Made by a program: the position numbers and the translations under genes. Positions 914 through 37,240 of a DNA stretch of 40,919 nucleotides are shown here, piece by piece. The DNA is taken from the NCBI GenBank assembly GCA_022925895.1, contig JAKSYS010000578.1, positions 1 to 40,919 of the forward strand, written 5' to 3'. Origin of the DNA: Fragilaria crotonensis. Its lineage: Eukaryota; Bacillariophyta; Fragilariophyceae; Fragilariales; Fragilariaceae. The notes beneath the pieces were generated by a model. The model did not search any database and had not been told where the DNA came from. It worked only from the letters and a program-made list of their open reading frames with translations. Position 1 is the first letter of the stretch, and every line of letters starts with the position of its first letter.

Positions 914-3900
914 CTAGGTTCTGGTGGTGTCATCTTCATGATTGACACGCACGGTATAAAACTTCGCATACTCACCCTTCACCCAAATGGGAGTTCCGTT
1001 CTCGTCCAAAACAGGAACCATCTGAGGTGGCATCCACTGTGATCTCTTTTCTTTCCTTGCCTTTTCGGCTCTGAACTTGAACGCACCTCCTGCTAGTGTC
1101 TGCACTTGACCGTACGTATCGATTGACATGGTGTCATTCTCAAGGAGAGCTTCACATGCCTCGCAATGTGTCACAACTGCATGCGATGCTTCCTGAAGCA
1201 CAGAATCGAGGAAAGCATTCATCGTCTCGCATTGTTCGAAAAATGGGAGATCAGGGTCTGGGAAGGGAAGGGCTTGAGATTTGGCGATCACTTTGATTAC
1301 CTTGAGACACAATTTCAGCCAAGGTGCAATCTTCACAATCCATTCTCGAGGCATGTCGATCTCAAAGGGTTCGTGACCTGGTTCACCCGAGCGAGCACAG
1401 ATAAAGACAACGCTGTACTTTTTCGTGAACCACTTCTTGGGATGTTCCAGGATTGTCTTATCAACCACGACGGGCGTCATCCAAACCAGATTCGGGCACT
1501 CCTTGAACTGATCGGCTGACAGATGCGCTAACGCTGCCAATGACCGGTCCAATCCTTTCTTCAGTCCCATTAGCACCCGCAGCTGTTTCTGCAACTGTGC
1601 TCTATTCTCGTCGAATCCCACTTTGACATCATCTTTGATGCCATCCAAATCGAATTTCAGCCCGGAAACTTGGGACTGCAGACCAGCCACTTGCCCAAAA
1701 AGATGTGATTGGAAACCAACAAATCGCGATTCAAATTGGAGGAAATAATCGTCCCATGTCTTCCTCTCAACACGTTTTTCAACATACCGATTGTACGTCT
1801 CAGTAGGAATGTGTTGACAAAGATCCTTGTCGTGAATTTTGCTGGAGCACTCCTTGATCAGGCACAAAAGTTGGCATCCGCTGTCATCAGCAAGCTTGTC
1901 CACAATACAAGGTGGGCACAGCGCGTGCCCTTCACTGCATGTTATATCTGTACGATAGTTGTTACAAACATCGCAGAATGAACCGCTGTCTATTGCAGTC
2001 ACAGCCTCAGAATTCTGAACGCCTGCGTTGGTATTCAAACGGATTGCATCTCTGAGCTCATCGAGGAGTTCCTTCGTGCTCAACCGTTTTTTAGAAGAGG
2101 GATGCATGCACTTAATAGCAGCCTTGCACACGAGTTCAAGAGACGCTGCATTCCAGATGATAGTGGGATCTGCATCACGTTTGAGCTTTCCCCATCCATC
2201 GTCAATCCGTAGATGATCCTCATCCTGTACGTAGGTCTGAAACACATCATGGAATTCAGTGTTAGAGGGCATCGATTGCCCTCTATTCAAGCGTCCTAAA
2301 ATTAGCTCAACCATCACAACACCAATGGAATACACATCGTAAGCAGCTTTATACGGACCCTTCTTCCACAGATACTCTGGACAAACATATCCACTAGTTC
2401 CAGATGGTGGCCCATCAGGTTTGCTCCAGTAAGAAACTGTCAACGATCCCGGAGTAGCACTGTAGTTGTCGTCCGGTACACATTTGGCAAGTCCACAATC
2501 AATCAGTCGGGGGGTGAAATCGTCAGCCAGACAAATGTTGGCACTCTTGATATCGCGATGAAACACTTTCCAACCATCGCCTGTCACCTTTTTGCAACCG
2601 CCAGTATGCAAGAAGTGAACCGCTCGCACCAACTGGAACATGATGGACAATCGAATGTCTGACGACAGGCGCGCTCTGTTGCCGACATCAGTAAAGAAGC
2701 CAGCGAGGGAGCCATTTGCGGCGTATTCATACACCAAGCACTGCTGTGCACGGTTGGCATTTAAACTGTAGCCATACAAGACAATAATGTTGGGATGCCG
2801 GCATTTCTTAAGCGTCTGGATATAATGTACAAATTGAGCGGTAGGAAGACGTAATTGGTCGTGACAAGGGAGATCATTGCTGCTCCTTATCAGAGACAAT
2901 TCAATACAGAACTTACCGAAAGCTCCGTCCGAAAGGTTCTACGAATTTCTTTGATATTGGCATCATCACATTTAGTAGGTCTAATCATTTTCACTGCAAA
3001 CTTTTTAGGCAGACGACTATCTTCCGCCAAAAACACGTCGCCAAAGGCGCCCGATCCAAGTTTGTGGTCCTTCTTGATGCATCGCTCTACGTATGCCAAG
3101 GAGAGTTCCACAGGTTCAGCGGAGGTTGTATTCATTACATGGTGAAGCTTCCTTCGGAATTGTTCAATCTTGAAGCTTGAAAAAGCATTCAAAGAACCCC
3201 AAATACTAGCGCAAGCGAGAGCCATCCATGTCCAGCCAATCTTTTTTCGACGGTCACGCTTTATATGCAACTCCAAGAGAAGTGCGACATCTTCTTTTTT
3301 CTGCCTGCGAGCGCAATCAAGAGCTGTGGCGCCATGGTTATTCTTGATATTCATATCCACTCCATCGTGCTCCAATAATGCACGAACCACTTCCACATGG
3401 CCATCGTAGCTCGCCAAGGTGAGAGCGGTGTTGCCATTGTTATTCTGAATATTCACATCCACTCCATGATGCTTCAATAAAGCACGAGCCACTTCCAAAT
3501 GACCCTTCCAGCTGGCCAAGATGAGAGCTGTGTCGCCATGGTTGGTATTCTTGATATTCACATCCACCCGCACGTGATTCAATAAGGCACGAACCACTTC
3601 CACATGGCCCATTTCGCTTGCCAAGGTGAGAGCTGTGGCGCCATGGTTATTCTTGACATTCACATCCACTCGACGGTGATTCATCAACGCATGAACCAAT
3701 TCCACACGGCCACTCAAGCTTGCCAAAAGTAGAGCTGCATCGCCATTATTATTCTTCGTATTCACATCCACACCTGCGTGATTCAATATAGCACGAACCA
3801 CTTCCACGTGGCCCTTCTCGATTGCTATGATGAGAGCTGTGGCGCCATGGTCATTCTTGATATTCACATCCACTCCATCGTGCTTCAGTAACGCACGAAC

Positions 3901-5166
3901 CACTTCCAAACGGCCCTTTTTACTTGCGGCGATGAGAGCTGCTACGCCAAAGTCATTCTTGGTATTCACATCGACTCCATCGTGAACCAATAAAAAACGA
4001 ACCACTTCCAAATGGCCAAACATGCTTGCACGGATAAGAGCTGTGTAACCATATTCATCTTTGGCATTCACATTTGCCCCACTTTTCAAAAGGTCCCGAA
4101 CCTTGTCGAGATTTCCATCTCTGGCTTTGCGAACCAAATCAACGCTTAGATCACGCTCTTCCTCCTTGAAAGACGTTTGCTCTTCCTTCTTGTGAAGCCT
4201 ATCAGGTTCCACGTGTTCCACCAAGGGACGTGCCGAAATGTCCCAATCACGTGATGCGGCGCCATGATTGTCCGTGATGGGCACATTCACCCCTTGGTGA
4301 TTCAATAACGCGCGAACAACCATCCAACATCCCCAAGCGCAAAAACAAATGAGAGCTGTTTGTGTCCAGCCAATATTGTTTCGACGTTCACGATTTATGT
4401 GTTTTTCTTCCAAAGCTTTTAAACGTGCAGCATCGTCACGACGCTTTTCAAGTTCTTTTTCCAACGCATCCTTGAGTCGCGCCTGCGATTCCTCTATGCG
4501 CCGCTTCGCTTTTTCCTCCTCCTCACGACGCTTCCGCTCTTCCTCCTCATAACGCTTTACAAATTCTTTTTCCAATGCATTTAAACGTTCAGCCTTCTCC
4601 TTGAGACGCGCCTGCGCTTCCACATTTAAACGTTCAACCTCCTCCTTGAGACGCGCCTGCGCTTCCACAATTAAACGTTCAGCCTCCTTGAGACGCGCCT
4701 GCGCTTCCTCCTCTCGACGCTTCCGCTCTTCCTCCTCACGACGCTTCCGCTCTTCCTCCTTGCGAAGCTTCTCCCGTTCCATGTGTTCCTGCAAGAGACG
4801 TGCAACATCACCTTTGTTCTCCTTGCGAGCAACGTCAAGAGCTGTTTCACCATCTTCATTCTGGATATTCGCATCCACTCCGTTGTGCATTAATAAAGCA
4901 CGAACCACTTCCAATTGGCCCTTATAGCTTGCACCGCTGAGAGCAGTCCAGCCTTTAATACCCTGGATATTCACATCAACTCCATCGTGATCCAATAGAG
5001 CACGAACCACTTCCAAATGGTCATTCCAGCTTGCCACGATGAGAGCTGTCCAGCCATATTTACCTTTGGCATTCACATTTGCCCCTCTTCGCAAAAGGTC
5101 ACGAACCTCGTCGAGATTTCCATCTCTGGCATTGTACATCAATTCATAATCAAGAGTCCAAGTCAT
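914..5166 (-). CDS. Gene 1: ankyrin-repeat TKL kinase with RING-like and C-terminal modules
   Basis: Two exons (5166-2917 and 2815-914) encode about 1,383 residues. In order they are ankyrin repeats (about 5-125), a long Glu/Arg/Lys coiled coil (about 125-267), a second ankyrin block (about 340-636), a hydrophobic stretch, and a protein kinase. The kinase shows the glycine loop LGSGAFG (703-709), Lys726 in FAVK, Glu748 of helix C, HRD at 836-838 and DCG in place of DFG at 856-858. A Cys/His zinc-binding region near 1030-1085 resembles the first RING of RBR ligases. A coiled coil and a C-terminal module starting at ECPNLVW (about 1184) follow. The kinase resembles TKL/Pelle kinases, so Ser/Thr phosphorylation is the expected activity, probably triggered by ligand binding to the ankyrins; both points are inference. 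The start matches the equivalent ATG of gene 4. No frameshift is present, making this the best-preserved member. Confidence 0.88.
2816..2916 (-). other. Intron of gene 1 (phase 0, 101 bp)
   Basis: On the minus strand the exon ends GAGCTTTCG, followed by GTAAGT, and the intron ends in TATCCAG before ACGCTTAAG. Joining gives FRTELS-TLKKCRHPNI, the normal helix-C to beta-4 run of a kinase. Genes 2 and 4 are interrupted at the same codon. Confidence 0.92.
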
Positions 5167-5168
5167 AG

Positions 5169-6289: not shown

Positions 6290-6885
6290 AGGAAGAACGT
6301 GATGGTGATAATGACGGTGAAAATTTCGTGGACTACGAATGATGAATGCGCACCATTGTATGGATTGTATTGGTCTGTATCAAGATTTGGACTACCGCGT
6401 TGATTGTATTTCGACTTTCTAGGAATGCATTCCCAAAGAGTCCATCTCGGTACCATGGAAAGGAAAGACGTTCTTCCGAGTACAGCTGTGAGGACTGCCA
6501 TTCAGCTGTTTGGTCCAACAATACGACTTCGTTTCCGATGTTATGGAACAACGTCATAAGCAACAATACACAGGAAGTTCTCGTTCATGGCGACTTGCCG
6601 CATCTGATACACAACAAGGAAAGTGACGATAAGTACGACGACGACGATGATGATGACGCACTCGGAGATTGATAATGACAAGGAGGGCCGTAAGAACGTT
6701 CTGTCAATACCGCCAAGGGCCATTCCGATATCTCGTGTGTCAGTGCGATGGAGAAGACCTATACAGCAGCAAGTCTATTGTTGGTGTAGACGATCGTAGT
6801 TGTAAAAACACTCGGAATGACTTTCCATTTCCAAGGCCTTGGGATGAATCCTACTAGATTCGCTGTAGCTCTCGATGCAGAATGA
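6290..6885 (+). pseudogene. Small conserved ORF repeat, copy 1 of 3
   Basis: Three dispersed copies (here, 17690-18261 and 33050-33465) share a reading sense on the plus strand. The comparable peptide blocks are EVLVHGDLPH, an acidic Asp-rich stretch, then YVLLTPPKP (clearest in copies 2 and 3), DLYSSKSL, and a C-terminal RFAVA-PDAE type ending followed by a stop at the same place in all three. Copy 1 keeps the HGDLPH block and the ending but has stops and frame changes between. All three carry TAG in the same place before the last block, so an intron ending in GTGTAG is possible there. I do not recognise the protein family. Confidence 0.5.
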
Positions 6886-11244: not shown

Positions 11245-11494
11245 AAACCTCGATCCATTTGCGTTTGCGTAGACTTAGTATACTTTCTACGTCTGAACAA
11301 AAACATTGAATACTACGACCTACGTGGGGCTACCTCGTGTACCCAGAATATGCATCCAGCCATATGATACCTCTCATGCACCGACAAACCCTTCGGAGTC
11401 ATGAAACAGATTGCGGCATGCGTTGCGTAGAGCGTGGTATCTTCGTATATCCATATATGCGTATCTTTGTATCTTTATATTACGTATCTTTAGT
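11245..11494. other. Spacer between two mobile elements
   Basis: AT-rich DNA without a gene. Irregular repeats of GTATCTT occur from about 11438 to 11491, directly before the left end of the next element. AGT at 11492-11494 is the left target-site copy. Confidence 0.5.
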
Positions 11495-11516
11495 GGAGCG
11501 ATCCCAAAACCTCAAA
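11495..11516 (+). repeat. Left terminal inverted repeat
   Basis: Starts GGAGCGATCCC and matches the reverse complement of 13041-13062 at 21 of 22 positions. The matching stops abruptly after position 11516. Confidence 0.88.
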
Positions 11517-11753
11517 TTCTCAAATAGCCATTTCTTCCGTTGTACATGTATTGAAGTCATGTTTTCCATGTGTACGACATGCAATACATGTTACACTAAC
11601 ACATGTAAAATGAAAAACAGTGTTTTGAGGAAATGGTGTGATATCATACGTAGAATCCTAAAACTCGAAACACGAGTATTAATTTTACCATCCAAGAACA
11701 CCAGACAATCCACCGCACCTGTGCTCCGCTGCTGTTAGTACCTCATCTCCACC

Positions 11754-12480
11754 ATGCTGGATGACATTGACATGATGCTGCTCTTCCTTCTCTACCGCAG
11801 AAAACCAAGAAGAATTCATTTCAAGTCCATTCAAGGTATCGGAAGAAGTTCCTAAAGAATCTCAGGTCACTGCAGCGCCGATTGCGCCAACGTCGTATTC
11901 CTCGTGTTTCGCTTCAAGACGCTTCTCAAAGTGCGTGGAAAACGCTGTTCAACTCAGGTAATGATCAGGCGTTAATTACCTTGACAGGCTTAACCTTTGA
12001 AGTATTCAATTGGTTGTTGCCTAAGTTGAGTGAGTTGTATGATACGCATTCACCTTTTGGTTCCGCTGATGGTTCAATCATTGCAATTCACAATGATCAG
12101 GTGATCAACCGAGGAGGACGACCAAGGATGATGAAAGCAACAGACTGCCTTGGTATGTCTTGCATGGACCAGGACAAGGGGCTCAAGTATGGTGCTGCAG
12201 ATTACTATCTTTGGGATGACTGCAACGTCCGTCAGCCTCTACCTTCAGTTCGGTCGACGAATTTTAGTTGAGGTTCTTAAAAATGAGCCACTTTCAGCCA
12301 TCGGGATTCCCAGCATTGAAAATATCAGAACTTATCAGGCAGTTATTAGGGGAGTCAACAGGATCCTGCTGCCAATAATGTTGCTGAGTTTGCCAGAGGT
12401 GTTAGAATGAACAGGGAAGCAACTGCTATGCGGCAATCTGCCGAGTGGGGGATGCGGGCCATTCAGTCAACAGTCTGTCT
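11754..12480 (+). pseudogene. Harbinger-type transposase relic
   Basis: From the ATG at 11754 (preceded by ACC) the N-terminal half can be followed with frame changes near 11840 and 12150. It passes LITLTGLTFEVFNWLLPKL, HSPFGSADGSI, RPRMMKATDCLG, AWTRTRGSSMVLQI, LQFGRRILVEVLK and IENIRTYQAVI. It then jumps to NREATAMRQSAEWGMRAIQS near 12410, which belongs near the C-terminus of this family. The segment between, which should hold the Asp residues of the DDE centre (roughly 200 residues), is absent. The C-terminus is also lost, running into the tail of the opposing Myb-like ORF. The transposase would have cut the element's own ends. Confidence 0.75.
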
Positions 12481-14949: not shown

Positions 14950-16158
14950 CTCACATTTCATAGTTCACACGTGACCTTTCACCATACTGGCTGCGATTCC
15001 GCCGAACGACGCTTCTGTTGTTCAACCTCTCGAAACCTCTGTACTTCCACCACAAGACGTCTCGGCTCGTCTTCCTCGAGACGGTTCTCGTGTTCCGTGT
15101 GTTCCTCCGAGTGACGTGCAACGTCTTAATTCTCCCGGCGGCATGCCACATCCTAGAGGATATCAGATTAGGTATTCATGCATCTGGCATTCACATCCAC
15201 CTTATCGTTTTGGTGCAACAAACGGACAACTTCCACATGGCCATTTTCACTCGCAATAATAAGAGCTGTTTTGCCATCGGTGCATCGGAGATCCACCTCA
15301 ACATCGTCGTCGCCGTCTTGGAGCAACTCGCGAACAACGTCTGCATGGCCATTTTCACTCGCAATGTAAAGAGCTGTTTTACCATCGGCGGTGCATTGGG
15401 CATTCACCTCCACGTCGACGCATTCGAGTAACTTCCGAGCAACTTTCTCATGGCCATTTTCACTCGCAACGTATAGGGGTGTTTTATCATCAGTGCATCG
15501 GGCATTCACATCTACCTCATCATTTTCGAGTAATTCCTGAACGACTTCCACATGGCCCTTTTCACACGCAATGAAGAGTGCTGTTTTACCATTAGTACAT
15601 TCGAGATTAACAACCACATTGATGTGGTGTTGTTGCAATTCGTCGAGGACTTCCGCACTGGAATCGTCACATGAAGGGCTCTTCTCGTTTCAACGAGCAG
15701 GGGTTCTGCGTGGCACTCGATGCTCAGCTCCGCTTCCTGCAGGCTTTCTATTAAACAACTCTTGTCGACGTTCAGCATCTTCATATCTTCGTTGTTGTTC
15801 CTCCTCAGGACGTCTCTTCTCTTCTTCCTCGCGATTATTCTGGTCCGTGGAATAGCCCTGTATCCTTGCTCGTTTTCTTGGTGAATTTGCGGACTGCGAA
15901 TCGGTTTCGATCCAATGTACTTTCTGTGCCTCCACGCGACGCCTCCGTAGGTTCGTCTTCTCCTCCAAGAGGCGCGCAATATCATCATTACCATGGTTGC
16001 GAGCGTATTCCCATGGCCCACATGGCTTGCACAGATGAGAGCTATATTACCGTATTCATCCATCGCATTCAAGTAAGAGCCCAAGAACCTCGACGAGATT
16101 GAGAACATTTCTGGCGTTCTCAATCCATTGCGAATCATGAGGAAGCGTTTGACTCATA
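14950..16158 (-). pseudogene. Ankyrin gene relic without kinase domain
   Basis: The start ATG (16158-16156) gives MSQTLPHDSQWIENARN, parallel to gene 1 (TLDYELMYNARDG). After one frame change comes an ankyrin repeat (NAMDEYGNIALICASHVGHG), a Glu/Arg coiled coil around 15970-15700 with the RRQELFNRKPA motif seen in genes 2 and 4, and about four well-kept ankyrin repeats at 15638-15168. A stop (TAA near 15168) follows, then decayed DVARHSEEHTEHENRLEEDE-like coiled coil to about 14990. No kinase follows. The last ankyrin block is cleaner than the rest, so a short ankyrin-only protein from 15638 remains possible. Confidence 0.7.
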
Positions 16159-16724
16159 ATGCGCAGACTTCTCTGAAATGGAACAACACGAACTGTCAAT
16201 TGAAATCAAAATGTTGGCAGAGACGTGACTGACGGATGGCTCGTGGCTAGTGGCTCACGGGTGATCTGTCACGCCAATGCAAGATCTGTTGTCCACTTGT
16301 GCCCCACAATTATGCATAGAGTAGATGTGATGAAGTTTCATGCTGTCTTTGGTATGGGTATCTTTTCTCGGAACAATCACAACATTCGCAACAGATTTTG
16401 TCCTCCCACACGATGCATGCGATGCATTTACTGCAGGAGGCTGTTCCGAGTTCCGATGCACCGGGTGAAGGAAGGTCCGCGCCAGATTATTTCGATTTTC
16501 GCCACCGTAGCTTCTGGTACTGTAGTTGTAGCACTTTGAATCTTTGTATAATATACATACATGCAAACTGCATATACTCGTAGTACATGTCACTCACTCG
16601 TACTAGTACACCAATAATATGACAAAATTCAAAACTCAGAACGAAAACGCTCCCATCACAAGTCACAATGCCGTTCGCAACTGGAATTGCTATTAATTGA
16701 CCGTATTGTTGATTTCATCATTAC
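16159..16724. other. Intergenic stretch without a recognised gene
   Basis: AT-rich with TAC/GTA runs near 16550-16620. No frame with recognisable content and no clear match to the other blocks. Confidence 0.45.
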
Positions 16725-17541
16725 GAATTGTTTGTTCCAGAAATGATTGATTTGGCTTTGGAAAAAGAAAGGAAGAAAAGGCATTCAGAGGCGGCTATTT
16801 GGTTCGATTACCTCAAGATACAATGTCATCCAAGGTCGTGCAGTCGTCGCAATCCATCCTTTTGGATCGTCGGATCCATACGATTCGTTGATGCACTTGT
16901 TGTTCGTGGGAGTGTGCACTTTTGAAGACGACGCTGAAATGTTTCCTTCGCTACTATTTGTGTGATGCATTTCTTGGGATTTCTCAAATCGTTCTTGAAC
17001 TACGGCATCATTCCTCATGGGAGTAGTCAACCAGAAGAGATGTGTCGGGCACCTCTTGAACTGAATCGTGGACAGTTGCGCCGATGCTACGTACCACGAC
17101 CGGTCAACAGTTTAACGATTGCCAACACTGTCCGCTGTCCGAGTATTGAAGCGTAGGTGATTGATGTCGCACTACCAGTACTTCTGTGCTGCACCCTGCA
17201 CCGTGACGGAACGCTGCATTGAGCAGAATTGCAACTTTAGATGTACTGCAGAGACGATGAGGTTAATGCGCCAAATAAGTCAACAAGTCAGCTTGGCAAG
17301 ACCCTCTCTTTCCGACTTTTACTGGATTGCTCGCTTGAATAGTCTGCTGGTTTCACAGGACTTGTCCTCTCAACGAGTTTGCCTTTTTGTGAGTGACAAA
17401 TTGAATGTCACAGTTCGTGCACTGCACTCGTCGTTCCAGGGGTTGGTACCCAAAGAGAAAAGCGCGTGAAAGGCTCGGTAGAAAATGCATGTTGTACCTC
17501 ATGGCAAACCGCCATTGCGATCTCGTCGTCGTCGAGACCAA
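16725..17541 (-). pseudogene. Decayed kinase-gene C-terminal region
   Basis: The plus-strand DNA around 16800-17120 follows that of genes 1 and 3 in order: a TTCGATTACCTCAAG run, an AATCCATCCTTTTGG run, TTTCTTGGGATTTC, GGCACCTCTTGAACTGA, then ACCACGACCGGTCAA. These correspond to the C-terminal module (APWLKLCL, P-WI, KYSVVF, FKECPNLVW). No long frame survives. Farther upstream a minus-strand frame at 17541-17353 has CTNCDIQF, perhaps the ruined zinc region. It lies left of the small-ORF repeat, as gene 3 does in block B, so it is probably the block C counterpart of gene 3. Confidence 0.6.
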
Positions 17542-18700: not shown

Positions 18701-21700
18701 CTAAACTCGATAGTGATCCTGAAATTCACCCTTCACCCACATTATCGTCCCGTTCCGATCACAGACAGGAACCATCTGAGGTGGCTTCCACTGCGATCGC
18801 TTCTCTTTCTGTGCCTTCTCTGCAATAAGCTGGAACGAATCTCCCGCTAGTGTCTGCATCTGACCATATGAATCAATCGTCATAGTGCCACTCTCAAGGA
18901 GAGTCTCACAACGAGACAAGACAGCGTTCGCACCTTCTTCAATCACAGACTCGAGCAACGTCTTCATTTTTCCGCATTGGTCAAGAAATGAGAGATCAGG
19001 GATGGGAAAGGGAAGTCCCTGCGAACCGGCAGCCCCTTTCAGTGCCAAAAGGCACAATTTCAGCCAAGGTGCAATCTTTGTAATCCAACCTTTTGGCACC
19101 TCGATCTCAAAGGGTTCGTGACCTGGTTGACCTGAGTGTGCGCAAATGAAGACAACCTTGTATTTTTGCTTCAATGCGCTCCTGATCCAATTCTTGGGAT
19201 TTCCCAGGTCTTGCTTCTCAACCGAGATGGGTGCCACCCAAACGAGATTTGGGCACTCCTTGAACTGATTCGCAGCGAGCAACGACAATGCCGCCAATGA
19301 CCGTTCTAATCCGCTTGCCAACCTCTGAAGCATATCCTGCTGCTCCTGCAGCAATTGGTTATTGCGTTCAACGCCAACTCGGACCGCCCTCATCCCGTGG
19401 AGAATTTCGTCCAACTTGGCATGCTCGACTTTCTTCTCAATGTACCGATTGTACGTCTCAACAGATACGCGTCCAAAAAGATCTTCGTCTCGAAAAGGTT
19501 GACTCGAGCACCGGTCGATCAGGCACGATACGTGGTATCCGTTGCTATGCCCGAGCGCGTTCCCGATGCAACCTGAGCACAAAGGATGCCCTTCGCTACA
19601 AGCCATATCCGTACGGCATTGGTTGCAAATAATACAGAATGGGCGGTTGTCTCCTGCGCTGTTAGTCTCGGGGCTTGGTGTTTCTGTGATGGCCGTGCGA
19701 AGCTCTTCAAGGAGCTCGCTGGTGCTCAACCTTGTTTTAGAGGTAGGGGTTATGCACCGAATTGCAGCTTTGCAAACTAATCGAAAAGACCTTGGATCCC
19801 AGATGATGGAGGGGTCTGCATCTTGTTCAAGTATCTTCCACCCATCGCCAATGAGCTCACCATCCTCATCCTTAACATACTTCTCAAACACATCGGTGAA
19901 TTGCGTTCCATTCCTTGTCGACTGCCCATTAATCAAGCACCTAAAATTAATTCAACCATGACAATGCCAATAGAATACACATCAAAGGCGGCAATATAGG
20001 GACAGGACTTCCCCATACCCTTCTTCAAGACATACTCCGGGCACATATACCCACGGGTTCCAAATGCGTGGCCGCCAGTTGTACTCCTTACTGATGGTAT
20101 GACAGAGCCTGGAACAATGTTGAGGTTCTCGTCAGGAACAAACTTGGCAAGCCCACAATCAATGAGCCGGGCTGTGAAATCTTCCGCCAGACAAATGTTC
20201 GCACTCTTGATATCGCGATGAAAGACTTTCCAACCCTCGCAACCACCAGAGTGCAAGAAGTTGACTGCTCTCGCCACTTCGAACATGATTGACAGCCGAA
20301 TATCTGTCGTGAGGCGAGCTCGATTGCCGTCATCTCTCAAGAAACCATCAAGGGAACCGTTGGCTGCATACTCATACACCAAACACTGATCATTAAGACT
20401 GGCATTTAAATTGTAGCCGTACAAGACAATGATGTTGGGATGATGAAATCTCTTGAGTGTCTGCGGAAGATTTGTACACATGCTCTTATGTAAGAAATCC
20501 AGAATATAGGGAGGGTCGTTCTACCATACGCCAATGTTTTGAGAGCACATTTCAGAACTTACCGACAGTTCCCGCTGGAAGCTTTTCCGAATTTCGTTAA
20601 TTGTATCTTGATCACATTGAGCAAGTTTGACCTTTTTGACTGCAAACTTTTTGGGGAGGTGACTATCCTCGGCCAAAAAAGCATCGCCAAAGGCACCTGA
20701 TCCAAGTGTGCGTTTGGTGATGCAATGTTCAATGTACTGATGAGAGAGTTCAACAGGATCATGATCCTTGGAGGTGCTACTCATCACATTGAACAGCTTG
20801 CTTCGGTCCTTTTCAATCGCAGCGTCATCGCTGGGAGGGCTGTTCTCGTTTCGACGAGGGGGGTTGCCTGTCACTCGCTGCCCCGCTACACTTGCTGCTG
20901 CAGGCCTCCTTCTGTTCAACAACTCTTGTCGACGGCGCTTCTCTTCCATGGCCTGCTTCCGTTCATCATCCATGCGACGCCTCCGCTCTTCCTCCTCACG
21001 TCGCTTCTGTTCTTCTTCCTCAAGACGATTCCTCTCGTCCTCCATGTGTTTTTTCAAGAGACGTACGATATCATCGTGCTTTTGTTGGAGCGCTCTATCC
21101 AGAGGTGTTAACCCACCATCACCAGTACATTGGAGGTTTAAATCCACCTTGTTGTTTTGGAGCAACGCCCGGACGACTTCCACATGGCCATTTTGACTCG
21201 CAACGTACAGGGCTGTTGCACCATCATCAGTACGTTGGAGATTCACATTCACCTTGTTGTTTTGGAGCAACTCGCGGACGACTTCCAAATCGCCATTTTG
21301 ACTCGCAACGTACAGGGCTGTTGCACCATCATCAGTACGTTGGAGATTCACATTCACCTTGTTGTTTTGGAGCAACTCGCGGACGACTTCCACATGGCCA
21401 TTATGACTCGCAATCATAAGGGGTGTTGCACCATCAGTCATTCGTAGATTCACATCCGTCTTGTTGTTTTGGAGCAACAAGCGGACGACTTCCACATGGC
21501 CATTACAACTCGCAACGTAAAGGGGTGTAAAACCACCAGTCATTTGGAGATTCGCATCCACCTTTTTGTTTTGGAGCAACAAGCGGACGACTTCCAAATG
21601 GCCATTACGACTCGCGGCGTAAAGGGCTGTTTGACCATCAGTCATTTGGAGATTCACATCCGTCTTGTTGTTTTGGAGCAACAGGCGGACGACTTCCACA

Positions 21701-23437
21701 TGGCCATAACAACTCGCCATGAAAAGGGCAGTTACACCATCATCATCACGTTGACCATTCACATCCGTCTTGTTGTTTTGGAGCAACAAGCGGACGACTT
21801 CCACATGGCCATTACGACTCGCGGCGTAAAGGGCTGTTTGACCATCAGTCCTTTGGAGATTCACATCCAATTTGTTGTTTTGGAGCAACTCGCGGACGAC
21901 TTCCACATGCCCATTTTGACACGCTATATAAAGGGCTGTTGCACCATTAGTGTTAGGGAGATTCACATCCACCTTGTTGTTTCGGAGCAACTCGCGGACG
22001 ACTTCCAGTTGTCCATTTTGACTCGCAACGTAAAGGGCTGTTGTACCATCATCAGTGCGTCGGAGATTCACATCCACCTTGTTGTTTTGGAGCAACGCCC
22101 GGACGACTTCCACATGGCCAAATTCACTCGCAATGTAAAGGGCTGTATAACCACCAGTCATTTGGAGATTTACATCCACCTTGTTGTTTCGGAGCAACTC
22201 GCGAACGACTTCCACATGGCCCTCTTGACTCGCAATGTAAAGGGCTGTTGTACCATCATTTGTACGTTGGAGATTCACATCCACTTTGTTGTTTTGGAGC
22301 AACGCGCGGACGATTTCCACATGGCCCTTTTCTCGCAATGTAAGGGCTGTATAACCACCAGTCTTTTGAGATTCACATCCACCTTGTTGTTTTGGAGCAA
22401 CGCGCGGACAACTTCAAATGGCCAAATTCACTCGCAATGTAAAGCGCTGTTGTACCACCATCATCAGTACGTTGGAGATTCACATCCACCTTATTGTTTT
22501 GGAGCAACTCGCGGACGACTTCCAGTTGTCCATTTTGACTCGCAACGTATAGGGCTGTTGTACCATCATCAGTGCGTCGGAGATTCACATCCACCTTGTT
22601 GTTTTGGAGCAACGCCCGGACGACTTCCACATGGCCAAATTCACTCGCAATGTAAAGGGCTGTATAACCACCAGTCATTTGGAGATTTACATCCACCTTG
22701 TTGTTTCGGAGCAACTTGCGAACGACTTCCACATGGCCCTCTTGACTCGCAGTGTAAAGGGCTGTTGTACCATCATTTGTACGTTGGAGATTCACATCCA
22801 CCTTGTTGTTTTGGAGCAACGCGCGGACGATTTCCACATGGCCCTTTTCACTCGCAATGTAAAGGGCTGTATAACCACCAGTCTTTTGGAGATTCACATC
22901 CACCTTGTTGTTTTGGAGCAACGCGCGGACAACTTCCAAATGGCCAAATTCACTCGCAATGTAAAGCGCTGTTGTACCACCATCATCAGTACGTTGGAGA
23001 TTCACATCCACCTTATTGTTTTGGAGCAACTCGCGGACGACTTCCACATGGCCATTTTGACTCGCCATGTAAAGGGCTGTTGAACCACAAGTATGTTGGA
23101 GATTCACATCCACCTTGTTGTTTCGGAGCAACTCGCGGACGACTTCCAGTTGTCCATTTTGACTCGCAACGTAAAGGGCTGTTGTACCATCATCAGTGCG
23201 TCGGAGATTCACATCCACCTTGTTGTTTTGGAGCAACGCCCGGACGACTTCCACATGGCCAAATTCACTCGCAACGTAAAGGGCAGTTACACCAATATCA
23301 GTACGTTGAGCATTCACATTGGCTCCCGCTCGTAACAGGTCACGAACCTCTTGGAGATTACCATCAAAGGCACTGTTAATCAATTTCCGATCATTCGCAC
23401 TCGACGGCTCCTTCCTTTTCGAAAAGATAGATCGCAT
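18701..23437 (-). CDS. Gene 2: ankyrin-repeat (about 23) TKL kinase with RING-like module
   Basis: Exon 1 (23437-20563) starts MRSIFSKRKEPSSANDRKLI and carries about 23 ankyrin repeats with the consensus GTTALYVASQNGHVEVVREL and NNKVDVNLQRTDD. A coiled coil (RLEEEEQKRREEEERRRR) and RRQELLNRRRPAAAS follow, then the kinase glycine loop LGSGAFGDAF and FAVKK. Exon 2 (20460-18701) has HRDIKSAN, DCG for DFG, the zinc region (FCIICNQCRTDMACSEGH), a coiled coil and the C-terminal module (FKECPNLVW, PGHEPFEI, final WVKGEF). Two spots break the frame. Near 22335-22410 five bases are missing relative to an almost identical copy 519 bp away; near 19942 one base is missing in a G run (gene 4 keeps it). 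With these restored the product is about 1,545 residues. I therefore call it a probable functional gene with consensus errors. Confidence 0.78.
20461..20562 (-). other. Intron of gene 2 (phase 0, 102 bp)
   Basis: Donor GTAAGT after GAACTGTCG; acceptor TTCCGCAG before ACACTCAAGAG. The joint gives FQRELS-TLKRFHHPNI. Same codon as in genes 1 and 4. Confidence 0.92.
22041..23078 (-). repeat. Internal 519-bp tandem duplication in the gene 2 ankyrin array
   Basis: The segment 22041-22559 recurs almost unchanged at 22560-23078. It covers five ankyrin repeats of 33-35 codons. Shared odd features include the variant ttggagatttacatcc, TTGTTGTTTCGG and the codon variant AAAGCGCTG. Outside this pair the repeats are more diverged, so it is a recent unequal exchange or slippage event. 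Confidence 0.8.
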
Positions 23438-31071: not shown

Positions 31072-33144
31072 CTAGGTACTAGTGGTGTCATCCTCATGAT
31101 TGACACGCACTCCATAATGCTTCTTCGCACAGTCACCCGTCACCCAAATGGTAGTTCCGTTCTGGTCCACAACAGGAACCATCTTAGGTGGCATCCACAG
31201 ATGCCTTCTCTTGTCTTTCTGTGCCTTTTCTGCGATTAACTCGTATGCAGCTCCTGTCAGTTCATGCATTTTGCCGCATGCTTCGATTGGCGTGGTGTCG
31301 TCATTCTCAAGGAAAGCCTGAAAACTGTCCAAGACGGCACCCGCTGCTTCGTCAATCACAGAATCAAGAAACCCCGCCAATTTTTCGCATTGGTCAAGAA
31401 TTGGGATTGGAGGGATTGGGAGGGGAACACCATAAGCTTCGACAACCTTTTTGATTACCCAAAGACACACTTTCAGCCACGGTGCAACCTTCACGATCCA
31501 TCCTCGAGGCATCTCGATCTCAAAGGGTTCGTGCCCTGGCACACCCGAGTGTGCACAGATGAAGACGACGCTGTATTTTTGCAGCACTTTGTCCTTGCTC
31601 CACCCCATTGGATCTTTCAGGAACTTCTCATCAAAAACCAAGGGTGTCATCAAAACCAGATTCGGGCATTTCTTAAACTGATTTGCTGACAGTAGCGCTA
31701 ACGCTGCCAATGACCGGTCTAATCCTTTTGCCAACCTCTGTAGCATGTGCTGCTGCTTCTGTAGCAACTCGTTTGAATGTTCAACACCAACATGGACCAC
31801 GTATATATCAGATCTCACCAGGTACACTTGGCGGAGACATTCGTCCACCTTCGTCTGGTCGGCGCGTTGTTCAACGTAACGTTTGTACGTCTCAACAGGA
31901 ATGCGTCCATAAAGATCCTTGTCGTGGATTTTGCTTGGGCAATCCTGAATCAGGCATACAAGTTGGCATCCGTTCTCATCACAGAGCTTATCCACAATAC
32001 AAGTTGTGCACAGCGCATGCCCTTTGCTGCACTTGAAATCTGAACGATATCTGTGGCAAGTTTCACAGTATGCATATTCATATCGGCCGGTGTTCGTATT
32101 GCGCCATATGCTGACGTGGCTTGCAAAGATTGCGAAGATCGTGACTCCGATGATTAGGAAATTGGCGACCCGTAAATCTGGAGCAAAACAAACGGAAATC
32201 GTCAGCAAAAAAGTGGCAAGCACTGCGACGCTTCGCACTCCATCAGGTTGTCGAATGCCTTCGTCGGCATTCAAATTGATTGCATCTCTGAGCTTATCGA
32301 GGAGTTCCTTCGTGCTCAACCTTTTGTCAGGCAGAGGAGCCATGCAGGCAATAGCAGCCTTGCATAAAAGTTGAAGAGACGCTGGATTCCAGATGATGGT
32401 GGGATCGGCATCATCCATGAGCTTTTTCCATCCTTTGCGAATCGGCCGATCACGCCCGTCCTTGACATATCGACGATATGCATTCTCGAGTTGCACCCCG
32501 TTGGTCGTCGGAAGCCCTCCCGTCACGCATCCCACAATGAGCTCAACCAAGACAACGCCAACGGAAAACACGTCATAGGCAGCGATATAGGGCCACGAAG
32601 CGCTTTCCGATTTCATCTTGACATACTCTGGGCACATGTATCCGCGAGTTCCAAATGCAAACGCGCCGTTTGTGCTCTGCAAAGACCCCGGAGTAGCCCT
32701 GGAGTTGTCGTCAGGTACAAATTTGGCCAGCCCGCAATCAATCAGCCGGGGGGTAAAATCTTCCGCCAGACAAATATTGGCACTCTTGATATCGCGATGA
32801 AACACTTTCCAACTTTTGCCTGCCACCTTGCACCCGCCCGTGTGTAAGAAGTGCACTGCTCTCACCAATTTGAACATGATGGACAATCGAGTATCTGCCG
32901 ACAGGCGGGCTCTGTTGCCGTCGTCAGTAAAGAAGCCAGCGAGGGAGCCGTTAGCGGCATGTTCGTACACCAAACACTGCTGTGCACTGTTGGCATTTAA
33001 ACTGTAGCCATACAAGACAACAATGTTTGGATGCCGGAATCTCTTCAGACGCTCCGAGTACAGCTGTAAGGACCGCCATTCAGCTGTTGGGTCCAACAAT
33101 ACGGCTTTGTTTCCGATGTTATGGAACAACATCATAAGCAACAA
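31072..33144 (-). CDS. Gene 3: 5'-truncated TKL kinase with membrane segments and RING-like module
   Basis: An uninterrupted frame of 690 codons. True homology to genes 1, 2 and 4 begins at RLKRFRHPNIVVLYGY (about 33050), exactly where their exon 2 begins. The 31 residues before it (MLLMMLFHNIGNK on) are encoded by the antisense of the small-ORF repeat. So the ankyrins, glycine loop, ATP lysine and helix-C glutamate are all missing. HRDIKSAN and DCG are present. Unlike its relatives it has two hydrophobic segments between kinase and zinc region (VAVLATFLLTISVCF and ANFLIIGVTIFAIFA), which could anchor it in a membrane. The zinc region (CETCHRYRSDFKCSKGHALC), coiled coil and C-terminal module are complete. 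Without the N-lobe it cannot be an active kinase. It may be a dead fragment or a kinase-like membrane protein. Confidence 0.65.
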   Translation of the reverse strand: MLLMMLFHNIGNKAVLLDPTAEWRSLQLYSERLKRFRHPNIVVLYGYSLNANSAQQCLVYEHAANGSLAGFFTDDGNRARLSADTRLSIMFKLVRAVHFLHTGGCKVAGKSWKVFHRDIKSANICLAEDFTPRLIDCGLAKFVPDDNSRATPGSLQSTNGAFAFGTRGYMCPEYVKMKSESASWPYIAAYDVFSVGVVLVELIVGCVTGGLPTTNGVQLENAYRRYVKDGRDRPIRKGWKKLMDDADPTIIWNPASLQLLCKAAIACMAPLPDKRLSTKELLDKLRDAINLNADEGIRQPDGVRSVAVLATFLLTISVCFAPDLRVANFLIIGVTIFAIFASHVSIWRNTNTGRYEYAYCETCHRYRSDFKCSKGHALCTTCIVDKLCDENGCQLVCLIQDCPSKIHDKDLYGRIPVETYKRYVEQRADQTKVDECLRQVYLVRSDIYVVHVGVEHSNELLQKQQHMLQRLAKGLDRSLAALALLSANQFKKCPNLVLMTPLVFDEKFLKDPMGWSKDKVLQKYSVVFICAHSGVPGHEPFEIEMPRGWIVKVAPWLKVCLWVIKKVVEAYGVPLPIPPIPILDQCEKLAGFLDSVIDEAAGAVLDSFQAFLENDDTTPIEACGKMHELTGAAYELIAEKAQKDKRRHLWMPPKMVPVVDQNGTTIWVTGDCAKKHYGVRVNHEDDTTST

Positions 33145-33465
33145 TAAACAGGAGGTTCTCGTTCATGGCGACTTGCCGCATCCGATAGACTACAAGGAAC
33201 GTGACGATAAGTACGACGAAGACAATCATGATGAAATGCACTGGAAGATTGATCATGACAAAAAGGGATGTACGTACGTTCTGTTGACACTGCCAAAGGC
33301 CGATCCCAATAGCTGGTGTGACATTGCGATGGAGTTGACCTGTACAGCAGCAAGTCTCTGTTGGTGTAGACGATGGTAGTTGTACAAACACTCGGAACGA
33401 CGTTGCGTTTCCAAGGGCTTGGGATGAATCCTACTAGATTCGCTGTTGCTCCCGATGCAGAATGA
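33050..33465 (+). pseudogene. Small conserved ORF repeat, copy 3 of 3, fused to gene 3
   Basis: The longest undisturbed reading of this family: SEYSCKDRHSAVGSNN, QEVLVHGDLPHPIDYKE, then the acidic stretch and TYVLLTLPKADPN, running open to about 33379. The common ending RFAVAPDAE and TGA at 33463-33465 lie in another frame. Its 5' part is cut off by the junction with gene 3 at about 33050. The short string AGACG at the joint is also found at the matching place in copy 1. Confidence 0.5.
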
Positions 33466-33845
33466 AAACGAAGCAATAATCCCACTACGTTGGGATCGCA
33501 CTACCATACTCAAGTACTTGTCTCTTGTCAGTTTGACCCATCATGCCATCACACACGTACACCATACTTGTGTGCCATGTACTACAAGTATCGTACTACT
33601 ACTAACAAATACAAGCTTCAAGCTACTAATACTACGAGGTAGTTCTCGACGTGCATTCGAAGTAATGGAGTCTGGAATACGAGAATGTTGTGTGTGCTTT
33701 AGGTACTGATTATGATGAGTACACGATGACTACAGTTTGATGTTAGATATATATATGATACACCAATTCAACGAAACGCATCTCCAAACTTGAACGAATG
33801 ATATGCATACAACAGCTACTATGTACTAAGTTAACACGAACAATC
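33466..33845. other. Short intergenic stretch between the repeat and gene 4
   Basis: TAC/ACTAC-rich simple DNA (33570-33650) and AT-rich DNA near 33740. It probably holds the gene 4 3' untranslated region. No gene. Confidence 0.45.
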
Positions 33846-36800
33846 CTAAACTCGATAGCGATCCTGAAATTCACCCTTTACCCACATGATCGTCCCGTTT
33901 CGATCACAGACAGGAACCATCTGAGGTGGCTTCCACTGCGATCGCTTCTCTTTCTGTGCCTTCTCTGCAATAAGCTGGAACGAATCTCCCGCTAGTGTCT
34001 GCATCTGACCATATGTATCAATCGTCATAGTGCCACTCTCAAGGAGAGTCTCACAACGAGACAAGACAGCGTTCGCACCTTCTTCAATCACAGACTCGAG
34101 CAATGTCTTCATTTTTCCGCATTGGTCAAGAAATGAGAGATCAGGGATAGGAAGGGAAGTCCTGCGAACCGGCAACCTTTCAGTGCCAATAGGCACAATT
34201 TCAGCCAAGTGCAATCTTTGTTATCCATCCTTTTGGCACCTCGATCTCAAAGGGTTCGTGACCTGGTTGACCTGAGTGTGCGCAAATGAAGACAACCTTG
34301 TATTTTGCTTCAATGCGCTCCTGATCCACTTCTTGGGATTTCCCAGGTCTTGCTTCTCAACCGAGATGGGTGTCACCCAAACGAGATTTGGGCACTCCTT
34401 AAACTGATTCGCAGCGAGCAACGACAATGCCGCCAATGACCGTTCTAATCCGCTAGCCAACCTCTGAAGCATCTCCTGCTGCTCCTGCAGCAATTGGTTA
34501 TGCGTTCAACGCCAACTCGGACCGCCCTCATCCCGTGGAGAATTTCGTCCAACTTGGCATGTTCGACTTTCTTCTCAATGTACCGATTGTACGTCTCAAC
34601 AGATACGCGTCCAAAAAGATCTTCGTCTCGAAAGGTTGACTCGAGCACCGGTCGATCAGGCACGATACGTGGTATCCGGTGCTATGACCAAGCGCGTTCC
34701 CGATGCAACCTGAGCATAAAGGATGCCCTTCGCTACAAGCCATATCCGTACGGTATTGGTTGCAAATGATACAGAATGGGCGGTTGTCTCCTGCGCTGTT
34801 AGTCTCGGGGTTTGGTGTTTCTGTGATGGCCGTGCGAAGCTCTTCAAGGAGCTCGCTGGTGCTCAACCTTGTTTTGGAGGAAGGGGTAATACACCGAATA
34901 GCAGTTTTGCAAACTAATCGCAAAGACCTTGGATCCCAGATGATGGAGGGGTCTGCATCACGTTCAAGGATCTTCCATCCATCGACAATAAGGTCATCGT
35001 CCTCATCCTTGACGTACTTCTCAAAAACATCGTCGAATTGCGTTCCGTTCCTTGTCGACTGTCCACCAATCAAGCATCCCAAAATTAGTTCAACCATGAC
35101 GATGCCAATAGAATACACATCAAAGGCGGCAATGTAGGGACACGACCTCCCCCTACTCTTCTTCTTGACGTACTCTGGGCACATATACCCGGGGGTTCCG
35201 AATGCTGGGCCGCCAGTTGTACTCCTTACCGATGGTATGACAGACCCAGGAACGATATTGGGGTTCTCGTCAGGAACAAACTTGGCAAGCCCACAGTCAA
35301 TGAGCCGGGCTGTAAAATCTTCCGCCAGACAAATGTTCGCACTCTTGATATCACGATGAAACACTTTCCAACCCTCGCAACCACCAGAGTGCAAGAAATT
35401 GACTGCTCTCGCCACTTCGAACATGATTGACAGCCGAATGTCTGCCGTGAGGCGGGCTCGATTGCCGTCATCTCTCAAGAAACCATCGAGGGAGCCGTTG
35501 GCGGCATATTCATACACCAAAAACTGATCATAAAGACTGGCATTTAAATTGTAGCCGTACAAAACAATGATGTTGGGATGATGAAATCTCTTTAGTGTCT
35601 GGCAGAATTGCGCTCTCTTGTTAGAGGGGGGGGGGAGGGTCATTCTTCCAGACGAGGCAGCAACGTACCGAAAGTTCCCGCTGGAAGCTTTTCCGAATTT
35701 CGTTAATTGTATCTTGATCACATTGAGCAAGCTTGACCTTTTTGACTGCAAACTTTTTGGGGAGATGACTATCCTCGGCCAAAAAAACATCGCCAAAGGC
35801 ACCTGATCCAAGTGTGCGGTTGGTGATGCAATGTTCAATGTACTGATGAGAGAGTTCAACAGGATCATGATCCTTGGAGGTGCTACTCATCACCTTGAAC
35901 AGCTTGCTTCGGTCTTTTTCAATCGCGGCGTCATCGTTGGAAGGGCTGTTTTCGTTTCGACGAGGGGGGTTGCCTGTCACTCGCTGACCAGCCACACTTG
36001 CTGCTGCAGGCCTTCTATTAAGCAACTCTTGTCGACGGCGCTTCTCTTCCATGGCCTGCCTACGTTCATAATCCTTGCGACGACTCCGCTCTTCCTCCTC
36101 ACGACGCCTCCTCTCTTCCTCCTCAAGACGATTCCTCTCTTCCTCCTCATGTTTCTCCAAGAGACGTACGATGTCATCGTTGTTGTACTTGCGAGCGTTA
36201 TCAAGAGCTGCGTTGCCATCATTGTCCTTCATATTCACATCCACCCCTACGTGATTCAATAAAGCACGAACCACTTCCACATGGCCCCGATGGATTGCCT
36301 GGATGAGAGCTGTGGCGCCATGGTCATTCTTGATATTCACGTCCACTCCATTGTGCTTCAATAGAGCACGAACCACTTCCAAATGGCCGAGATAGGTCGC
36401 GTCGATCAGGGCAGTGGTGCCCCAATTATTCTTCATATTCACATCCACTTCATCATGATTCAATAACGCAAGAACAACTTCCATTTTGCCTGAAAAGCTT
36501 GCCCGGATGAGGGCTGTGAAGCCATCTTCATCCTTGGCATTCACATCCACTCCGTTGTGCACTAATAAAGCACGAACCACTTCCGTATGGCCATTATTGC
36601 TTGCCAAGATGAGAGCTGTGAAGCCATGATTATTCTGGATATTCACATCTACTCCGTTGTGCATTAATAAAGCACGAACCACTTCCAAATGGCCATTAAT
36701 GCTAGCATGGATGACAGCTGGGTTGCCATATTGACCCTTGATATTCACATCCACTCCATCGTGATTCAATAAAGCACGAACCACTTCCAAATGACCCTTT

Positions 36801-37240
36801 TTGCTTGCCAAGATGAGAGCTGTGTTGCCATCATTATTCTGGATATTCACATCCACTCCATCGTGATTCAATATAACACGAACCACTTCCGAATGGAAAC
36901 TCTCGCTCGCTTTGATGAGAGCTGTATCGCCAACATTATCCTTGATATTCACATCCACTCCATTGTGATTCAATAAAGCACGAACCACTTCCACAAAGCC
37001 ATACCAGCTTGCCCTGTAGAGAGCTGTGTCGCCCCATCTATCTTTGGCATTCACATCCACTCCATCATGATTTAATAACACACGAACCAATTCCAAACGA
37101 CCCCCAGTGCTTGCCCAGATGAGAGCTGTCCAGCCATCTTCATCTTTGGCATTCACGTTTGCCCCTCTTTGCAAGAGGTCACGAACCTTGTCGAGATATC
37201 CATCTCTGGCATTTTTAATTAATTCTTGATCAAGAGTCAT
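33846..37240 (-). CDS. Gene 4: mosaic ankyrin-repeat TKL kinase with RING-like module
   Basis: Exon 1 (37240-35669) starts MTLDQELIKNARDGYLDKV, matching the gene 1 start. It carries about twelve ankyrin repeats of the gene 1 type (HNGVDVNIKNDHGATALI), a shorter coiled coil, then RRQELLNRRPAAASVAGQRV, LGSGAFGDVFLAED and FAVKKVKL, which match gene 2 almost residue for residue. Exon 2 (35598-33846) has HRDIKSAN, DCG, the zinc region and C-terminal module, again of gene 2 type. Against gene 2, 34140-34640 lacks single bases at about eight places, all in runs (near 34151, 34160, 34175, 34205, 34304, 34501, 34632), with no insertion. Exon 1 is fully open. With the bases restored the product would be about 1,110 residues. 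Consensus error is more likely than decay, but only reads can tell. Confidence 0.75.
35599..35668 (-). other. Intron of gene 4 (phase 0, 70 bp)
   Basis: Donor GTACGT after GAACTTTCG, acceptor ATTCTGCCAG before ACACTAAAGAG. It is shorter than its counterparts and holds ten C in a row on the coding strand (35626-35635), absent from the other two introns. Confidence 0.88.

Follow-up and report, generated by a model that had tools for sequence, protein, structure and literature searches.

What kind of protein family is encoded by the ankyrin and kinase genes clustered in this part of the diatom genome, and do its members evolve as recognition receptors? The locus occupies a 40,919 nucleotide contig of Fragilaria crotonensis (the window, by which we mean the whole stretch of DNA analysed). 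A preliminary description had assigned its genes to a family of ankyrin, kinase and RING-like proteins with a shared C-terminal module (CTM), and had likened their variation to that of receptors of innate immunity. We consider the chances about even that the window contains one cluster of a large diatom family of modular, fast-diversifying recognition receptors. The coordinates of the relevant features are summarized in the table.

Features of the ankyrin-kinase cluster in the window (positions counted from the first nucleotide)
Feature	Position	Strand	Basis or content
Gene 1, intact	914..5166	-	ATG at 5166; 1383 aa (ORFs and splice joint)
Gene 1 ankyrin repeats	3260..5100, approximate edges	-	Pfam Ank_2, E 6.6e-80
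Gene 1 kinase	2047..3057, end approximate, intron inside	-	Pfam Pkinase, E 1.4e-26 (exon 2)
Gene 1 zinc region	1765..1980, approximate edges	-	Alignments; predicted RBR RING1-like fold
Gene 1 CTM	944..1546	-	Alignments and model of a paralogue's CTM
Decayed member	14950..17170	-	Ankyrin repeats, charged stretch, CTM remnants; many stops
Gene 2	18701..23437	-	16 ankyrin units by pattern, kinase, zinc region, CTM
Gene 3, 5'-truncated	31072..33162	-	Kinase without N-lobe, two hydrophobic segments, zinc region, CTM
Gene 4	33849..37240	-	Ankyrin array, kinase, zinc region, CTM; several frame breaks
Decayed ankyrin stretch	39793..40555	-	Near contig end

Gene 1 is composed of exon 1 (5166-2917), a 101 nt GT..AG intron (2916-2816) and exon 2 (2815-914), and its spliced frame contains no internal stop. 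Its ankyrin arrays lie within one exon, with a short N-terminal set (~5100-4840), a charged coil and a main array (~4130-3260), and pattern search recovers nine units. The plan originally proposed for the cluster (ankyrin array, coil, kinase, zinc region, coil and CTM) is recognizable in genes 1, 2 and 4, with Ank_2 matches on the minus strand at Pfam E-values of 1e-75 to 1e-124, but genes 2 and 4 are broken. In gene 2, frame breaks affect the ankyrin array at about 22.4 kb and the kinase at about 19.94 kb; those of gene 4 are located in the zinc/CTM part. Gene 3 is truncated as claimed, with neither an ankyrin array nor a kinase N-lobe, and its 5' start is similar to intergenic DNA at 6456-6584. 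Gene 1 is therefore the sole intact full-length member in the window. Part of the frame breaks may be sequencing or assembly errors if the assembly is of the Nanopore/Canu/Pilon type. Elsewhere in the window, six frames that do not belong to the cluster genes had no Pfam match at E<=0.1. Transposon-like frames, judged by eye, occur within and near clusters. The family members had also been described as soluble, which does not hold in general: gene 3 and a copy on contig C608 carry two membrane-helix-like segments, called by hydropathy alone, between the kinase and the zinc region.

Counting members genome-wide, as had been proposed, yielded approximately 73 CTM loci on 36 contigs, a figure that comprises matches of two queries at E<=0.001 joined within 700 nt, takes in fragments as well and may count alleles or the parts of split genes separately. 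The joined span exceeds 350 nt in 51 of them. At least two CTM loci are found on 16 contigs, with a single-strand arrangement in 13, and several family members have uninterrupted frames 900-1235 codons long. A contaminant contig is an unlikely source because matches to light-harvesting proteins (61 in the genome) and to the CTM share contigs C786 and C284. Those 61 matches mark the genome as that of a photosynthetic alga and led us to reject an oomycete origin, which genome size, GC and kinase number had at first suggested; elicitin and Crinkler families also had no match, but their controls were equally silent and the result carries no weight by itself. A primer-pattern search recovered no 18S region.

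Whole modules have been swapped between copies, with junctions close to the edges of domains. Genes 2 and 4 are 92% identical from the coil to the CTM, and their ankyrin arrays have no match in the same search. Similarly, gene 1 and a copy on contig C210 share 88% identity across the ankyrin and kinase parts, stopping before the zinc region. The tandem duplication, the domain exchange and the presence of pseudogene-like copies noted previously are real features of this family; three of the four copies in the window are damaged.

The kinase of gene 1 displays the motifs GSGAFG (residue 704), FAVK (723), HRDIK (836), LIDCG (854) and CPEY (895). DFG is replaced by DCG, and the catalytic Lys, the HRD and the metal-binding Asp are all kept. 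HRD-K and D-x-G patterns were detected in 15/18 ORFs, the unmatched ones (L006, L008 and L015) being broken, partial or off-pattern. When paralogue L003, read as a frame through its intron, was searched against PDB sequences with phmmer, IRAK1 (2.5e-17) and SymRK (5.2e-16) ranked first, followed by PBL2, IRAK4 and IRAK3; BRI1, CERK1, FERONIA, BIK1 and FLS2, together with CTR1 (2 rows) and NEK2 (1 row), were also among the best 60 of 66 matches. By sequence similarity, the kinase is nearest to IRAK and receptor-like kinases (RLKs) among the matches listed. It resembles IRAK/Pelle/RLK proteins in this respect and in its intact catalytic motifs, but differs in the ankyrin array placed in front, in DCG for DFG and in having no death domain or ectodomain among the matches listed. 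No N-terminal death domain appeared among the Pfam matches listed for the 8 window frames and 10 paralogue frames scanned, which included the first exons of some paralogues only.

The zinc region of gene 1 has the ligand order C-x2-C, C, H, C-x2-C, C-x4-C. Eight Cys/His ligands in C3HC4 order are invariant in three window copies, six are invariant in a 19-row alignment in which the first pair is unaligned in some rows, and the ligand pattern is found in 22/26 ORFs. Profile searches and structure prediction, both suggested earlier, returned weak RING-family scores and a RING1-like predicted fold. Among 19 members, Sina_RING scored a best E of 0.0025 (5/19) and zf-RING_5 an E of 0.031 (1/19), with neither IBR nor RING2 among the Pfam matches at E<=0.1; the best hit of the PDB profile search was RNF4 at a weak E of 0.11. 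The model reaches pLDDT blocks of 68-93 over its first 80 residues and predicts a long helix after the zinc region. VIA-align matched it to RNF216 (Z 8.7, 83 residues, 2.7 A), to the UbcM4-interacting protein 4 RING (Z 6.5) and to parkin (Z 5.2), to be compared with the best Z of typically 7 to 8 that VIA-align states for models without a clear match. We take the matched regions of the three proteins to be RING1. Plain Foldseek on a zinc-CTM model, the CTM part of which was poor, gave no match at E<=0.001 and only weak unrelated ones. The predicted fold suggests that the zinc region resembles RING1 of RBR ubiquitin ligases such as RNF216 and parkin, with the difference that IBR and RING2 were not found here. 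A kinase nearest to IRAK/RLK kinases followed by a predicted RING1-like domain fits the earlier idea of a kinase joined to a possible ubiquitin-ligase-like region.

The same two approaches were applied to the CTM. Cys-Pro, Cys, Gly-His and Trp are invariant among 29 aligned copies, and the CTM of a paralogue was modelled with a pTM of 0.69. In Pfam there were three weak matches, each with one member only (best E 0.03), none of which was accepted, and PDB sequences had nothing at E<=10. The structure model compared with the PDB reached a best Foldseek E of 0.078 (rmsd 12.6 A) and a best VIA Z of 2.3, and viral structures yielded no match at E<=0.001. Pattern-matching stretches were collected from viral contigs (67) and prokaryote genomes (50), none of them confirmed. 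These searches covered Pfam, the PDB, and viral and prokaryote data, with other eukaryotes outside their scope, and the fold may still be a known one. The CTM may resemble a domain found at the C-terminus of some repeat proteins of Mucoromycota. It is unnamed and has a foldable core, and no match in the searched libraries was accepted.

The ankyrin surface had been singled out for a check of positive selection. Mean pairwise identity among the 31-residue units is 0.49-0.77, with single pairs up to 1.00. We calculated pN/pS by a counting method, uncorrected for multiple hits, in which repeat pairs are non-independent and the unit-finding pattern is biased toward conserved scaffold positions. 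Of 18 family arrays with any unit, the 13 with at least five were kept (C294b had 4 usable). At the contact positions (-4, -3, -1, 8 and 9 around the T of TAL), a set fixed after the per-position table had been inspected, family pN/pS was 1.59 with kappa set to 1 (bootstrap 1.25-2.09) and 2.04 with kappa set to 2 (1.62-2.65), versus 0.23 and 0.26 for the scaffold. Contact values exceeded 1 in 11/13 arrays (kappa 1) and 13/13 (kappa 2), and all five positions were among the six with the highest pN of 31. We assume this set to correspond to the positions that are randomised when ankyrin proteins are designed. Control arrays of ankyrin repeats from this genome, on contigs without a CTM match (9/12 loci with at least five usable units; L063, L065 and L068 dropped), presented a weaker form of the pattern, with contact pN/pS of 0.93 (kappa 1) and 1.14 (kappa 2) and values above 1 in 3/9 and 6/9 arrays, respectively; the difference from the family is partly one of divergence because the control arrays are more saturated. 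Beyond the family, the genome is also very rich in ankyrin repeats (1713 first-look Ank_2 candidates, 150 scored).

For the remaining modules, dN/dS was computed from 14/18 ORFs (L006, L008, L014 and L015 were left out as broken or partial), using pairs with dS of 0.1-0.8 (kinase 80, zinc region 65 and CTM 62 of 91). The median was 0.51 for the kinase, with 0/80 pairs above 1, 1.07 for the zinc region and 0.86 for the CTM. The proposed conservation of the signalling half is therefore borne out for the kinase but not for the zinc region and the CTM, which evolve near neutrality; this could reflect relaxed constraint on an E3 role.

How might such proteins work? The ankyrin array would act as the sensor, its repeats being copied and swapped while the scaffold is kept, and contact residues driven to change would let different copies bind different partners. 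Ligand binding or coil-mediated clustering might activate the IRAK/Pelle-like kinase. The RING1-like domain, if it has E3 activity, could bring in an E2 enzyme, and the protein would then give a kinase signal and a ubiquitin signal together. The CTM would be a novel domain that may serve oligomerisation or docking. We infer from these features a putative role in non-self recognition, whether of chytrids, bacteria, viruses or mates, and possibly in immunity. The receptor-like evolution initially envisaged is supported by the excess of contact-site change, the number of CTM loci, often in same-strand arrays, and module exchange.

The same observations can be approached from other directions. An amplified housekeeping or developmental scaffold family, serving cell-shape, vesicle or stress signalling like plant KEEP ON GOING (KEG), would owe its ankyrin diversity to many internal partners. 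KEG likewise has a RING, a kinase and ankyrin repeats in one protein, and it takes part in the control of hormone signalling, as described in the available sections of PMC5385374, and the genomic abundance of ankyrin repeats beyond the family also agrees with a scaffold. Excess change at contact positions, module exchange, a fast zinc region and CTM and many broken copies would nonetheless be atypical of it, and we regard it as unlikely. A second possibility is selfish or near-neutral amplification, in which a repeat-rich gene multiplies by unequal crossing-over and gene conversion and most copies are non-functional. The damage to three window copies, the many fragments among the 73 loci and the transposon-like frames seen by eye in or near clusters point that way; however, purifying selection on the kinase, the strongly kept repeat scaffold and the long open frames of several copies make this account quite improbable.

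A narrower alternative concerns what is recognized: the proteins could be self/non-self receptors for allorecognition or mating instead of pathogen receptors. Fungal NLRs are under a similar evolutionary regime and some act in incompatibility, according to the accessible text of PMC4986451. Nothing in our data separates such a role from pathogen recognition, and we give it a very small chance. Returning to recognition receptors in the wider sense, we tentatively suggest, as a possible but doubtful extension, that diatoms, or at least the F. crotonensis lineage, have their own combinatorial innate recognition system. It would consist of dozens of ankyrin receptors in which sensor, IRAK-like kinase and RING/CTM cassettes are swapped near fixed junctions, the sensor surface and the RING/CTM end are both diversifying, and the CTM, in which two Cys and a His are invariant, is a new domain for ubiquitin transfer or receptor assembly. 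A family that evolves in the manner of fungal NLRs and would signal through an IRAK/Pelle-like kinase joined to a RING1-like domain would indicate a further lineage in which repeat sensors came to be linked to kinase and ubiquitin signalling, and would offer a direct handle on the encounters of bloom-forming diatoms with chytrids, bacteria and viruses.

Among titles and abstract openings of the open-access literature, no account of an ankyrin-kinase-RING-like family in a diatom was found. Several known systems share parts of its design. Like KEG, which contains RING, kinase, ankyrin and HERC2-like repeats and regulates ABA and jasmonate signalling, the family unites RING-like, kinase and ankyrin parts in one protein, but it differs in its ankyrin-kinase-RING-like order, its new C-terminal module and its dozens of loci (PMC5385374, accessible portion). 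No HERC2/RCC1-like repeat was among the Pfam matches listed for family frames. In KEG, the RING comes first. Oomycetes share with this diatom a stramenopile expansion of TKL kinases; the P. infestans kinase table, in the parts at hand, contains 3 ankyrin-bearing kinases (AGC, TKL) and has no RING among accessory domains (PMC3019232, PMC3681718).

Brown algal ROCO and NB-ARC-TPR proteins are candidate immune receptors, also of a stramenopile, in which repeats are shuffled; in ROCO, the concave face is under diversifying selection as well. They combine LRR with ROC-COR or TPR with NB-ARC instead of ankyrin repeats, kinase and a RING-like domain, and every LRR of ROCO has an exon to itself (PMC11378527, available text), unlike the arrays of gene 1 within a single exon. 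No ROC-COR, NACHT or NB-ARC domains were among the Pfam matches listed for 8 window frames (both exons of gene 1 included) and 10 paralogue frames. In fungal NLRs, ankyrin repeats show positive selection on inner helices and hairpin, repeat number varies and modules are joined combinatorially, as presented in the accessible part of PMC4986451; fungal NLR repeats of high internal conservation are >85% identical, against a mean of 0.49-0.77 here, although the two measures differ. The family shares with them an ankyrin sensor of similar repeats, contact-site diversification, variable repeat number and module joining (PMC4986451, same portion). Overall, the best reading is that the family is analogous to fungal ankyrin NLRs, with the sensor placed N-terminally and a proposed output through an IRAK/Pelle-like kinase and a RING1-like domain.

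As in the preliminary description, one plan is shared by four genes in the window, all on the minus strand. This plan is complete in gene 1, the intact copy, which encodes in order a short ankyrin set, a charged coil, the main ankyrin array, a kinase, a Cys/His stretch (the zinc region), a coiled coil and an unnamed C-terminal module (CTM), and carries one intron of 101 nt (2916-2816). Genes 2 and 4 are frame-broken (gene 2 in both the ankyrin array and the kinase) and gene 3 is truncated.

Members of the kinase gene family and relics in the window
Feature	Position	Strand	Description
Gene 1	914-5166	-	Intact: ATG at 5166, 1383 aa, 0 internal stops
Relic	14.95-17.17 kb		
Gene 2	18701-23437	-	Order as gene 1; 16 ankyrin units by pattern search
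Gene 3	31072-33162	-	Without ankyrins and kinase N-lobe
Gene 4	33849-37240	-	Frame broken within the zinc region and CTM part
Relic	39.79-40.56 kb		

The 5' start of gene 3 is similar to intergenic DNA upstream of gene 1. Flanks of the gene copies read alike by eye (6456-6774, 17963-18332 and 33160-33600, minus strand) and were probably duplicated along with the genes. Downstream of the kinase and ahead of the zinc region, gene 3 and a copy on contig C608 carry a pair of hydrophobic stretches (L012, L014), a sequence feature that suggests a membrane-anchored subgroup. A 643-codon open frame antisense to the gene 2 ankyrin array (21448-23379, plus strand) probably results from the repeats alone. 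A series of open frames at 8704-12271 (plus strand) looks by eye like what is left of a transposon; a Pfam scan of four of these frames gave nothing above cut-off.

The assembly containing the window comprises 62.1 Mb in 881 contigs. With 61 matches to light-harvesting proteins, the genome is that of a photosynthetic alga; contigs C786 and C284 each have a light-harvesting match alongside one to the CTM. The published F. crotonensis SAG 28.96 assembly (61.85 Mb, 879 contigs, 47.40% GC) derives from a non-axenic culture and was built from Nanopore reads with Canu and Illumina polishing (PMC9476933). If the two assemblies are the same, frame breaks in the repeated genes may therefore partly be assembly errors.

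Genome-wide, the gene 1 CTM gave 105 exon-level matches (E<=0.1) and a distant CTM query 66. Joining the matches of both queries at E<=0.001 yielded 73 loci on 36 contigs, a count that possibly includes alleles; the joined span exceeded 350 nt in 51 of the 73. Sixteen contigs held two or more loci, all on a single strand in 13 cases. Pfam recognized a kinase in 8/10 paralogue frames, together with ankyrins in 3/10; by our reading the remaining seven are short or start close to the intron site or downstream of it. Runs of kinase matches on contigs C854 and C143 mirror each other and are perhaps uncollapsed haplotypes.

Parts of these genes have been exchanged as cassettes. Genes 2 and 4 share 92% identity across 2.4 kb, a stretch that starts directly behind the ankyrin array and reaches beyond the CTM, while the same search (matches >=150 nt at E<=1e-20) found no match between their ankyrin arrays. 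Gene 1 and a copy on C210 are 88% identical over main ankyrin array and kinase, the match stopping just before the zinc region, and copies b and c on C163 share 90% identity over a stretch that starts shortly ahead of the CTM and runs into the 3' flank, against 79% upstream of it. Nearest neighbours also differ by domain: the zinc region of paralogue L024 is closest to that of L022 (0.89), and its kinase is closer to L005 (0.77) than to L022 (0.69).

Repeats were compared within each of 13 family arrays. Five positions (-4, -3, -1, 8 and 9 around the T of TAL), which we take from designed ankyrin proteins to be the contact face, had a pN/pS of 1.59 at kappa 1 (95% bootstrap over arrays 1.25-2.09) and 2.04 at kappa 2 (1.62-2.65), against 0.23 and 0.26 at scaffold positions. 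All five rank within the top six of 31 positions by pN, and the value was 1.81 at kappa 2 in the ten arrays that we classed as unbroken. Ankyrin repeats are extremely abundant in this genome (1713 first-look Ank_2 candidates, of which the 150 scored gave at least 246 matches, many in long frames), and the control arrays fetched are mostly much like the family in their 34-residue repeat style. Nine controls from contigs without a CTM match gave 0.93 (kappa 1) and 1.14 (kappa 2) at contact positions, although these arrays are more saturated than those of the family and the comparison is imperfect. Among repeat pairs differing at <=20% of bases the values were 3.09 for the family (310 pairs) and 1.33 for controls (42 pairs). 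Single controls exceeded 1 in 3/9 cases (kappa 1) and 6/9 (kappa 2); the ankyrin arrays of this genome therefore show the pattern generally, in weaker form. The contact set agrees with the inner helices and hairpin mapped in fungal NLRs (PMC4986451).

Among the matches listed, the PDB sequences nearest to a paralogue kinase were IRAK1, SymRK, PBL2, IRAK4 and IRAK3, with BRI1, CERK1, FERONIA, BIK1 and FLS2 ranking lower; CTR1 and NEK2 were among the matches too. The gene 1 kinase retains the Lys, the HRD and the Asp of D-C-G, and HRD and D-x-G patterns occur in 15/18 ORFs. The zinc region has the ligand pattern C-x2-C, C, H, C-x2-C, C-x4-C. In 19 members Pfam gave no RING match that passed the cut-off, the best being Sina_RING in 5/19 (E 0.0025), and no IBR or RING2. 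In an AlphaFold model of zinc region and CTM (mean pLDDT 60.9), 10-residue blocks scored 68-93 across residues 1-80, a long helix followed the zinc region and the CTM part was poor. Plain Foldseek with this model returned 0 matches at E<=0.001; a structural aligner matched RNF216 (Z 8.7), the UbcM4-interacting protein 4 RING (Z 6.5) and parkin (Z 5.2) to the zinc region. The zinc region is accordingly predicted to be RING1-like.

The signalling half had been described as conserved. Across 14 genes, this holds for the kinase (median dN/dS 0.51; 80 pairs, 0 above 1) but not for the zinc region (1.07; 65 pairs, 36 above 1) or the CTM (0.86; 62 pairs, 17 above 1), so conservation is confined to the kinase. 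Fast change outside invariant residues may reflect relaxed constraint or diversification. In 29 aligned CTM copies 12 columns are invariant, including Cys-Pro, Cys, Gly-His and three Trp, and one copy was modelled moderately well (pTM 0.69, mean pLDDT 74.7). No match to the CTM was accepted among PDB sequences, PDB and viral structures, viral contigs, prokaryote genomes or Pfam, the last giving three weak matches, each in a single member (best E 0.03).

Taken together, these features resemble those of a recognition-receptor family: the ankyrins diversify at their contact sites, the kinase is IRAK-like and the zinc region RING1-like, the clusters include damaged copies, and cassettes are exchanged. 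In such a protein the ankyrins would bind a ligand, clustering would activate the kinase and the RING1-like domain would recruit an E2. The open-access literature searched listed no account of a diatom family of this kind. The family belongs to none of the fungal NLRs, ROCO, RBR or KEG proteins, because NACHT/NB-ARC, ROC-COR, IBR/RING2 and HERC2 repeats, respectively, were not found in the domain scans made of family frames. Among stramenopiles, the LRR repeats of brown algal ROCO genes are under diversifying selection (PMC11378527). For the sensor, the nearest precedent is found in fungal NLRs (PMC4986451), and for the domain set in plant KEG (PMC5385374).
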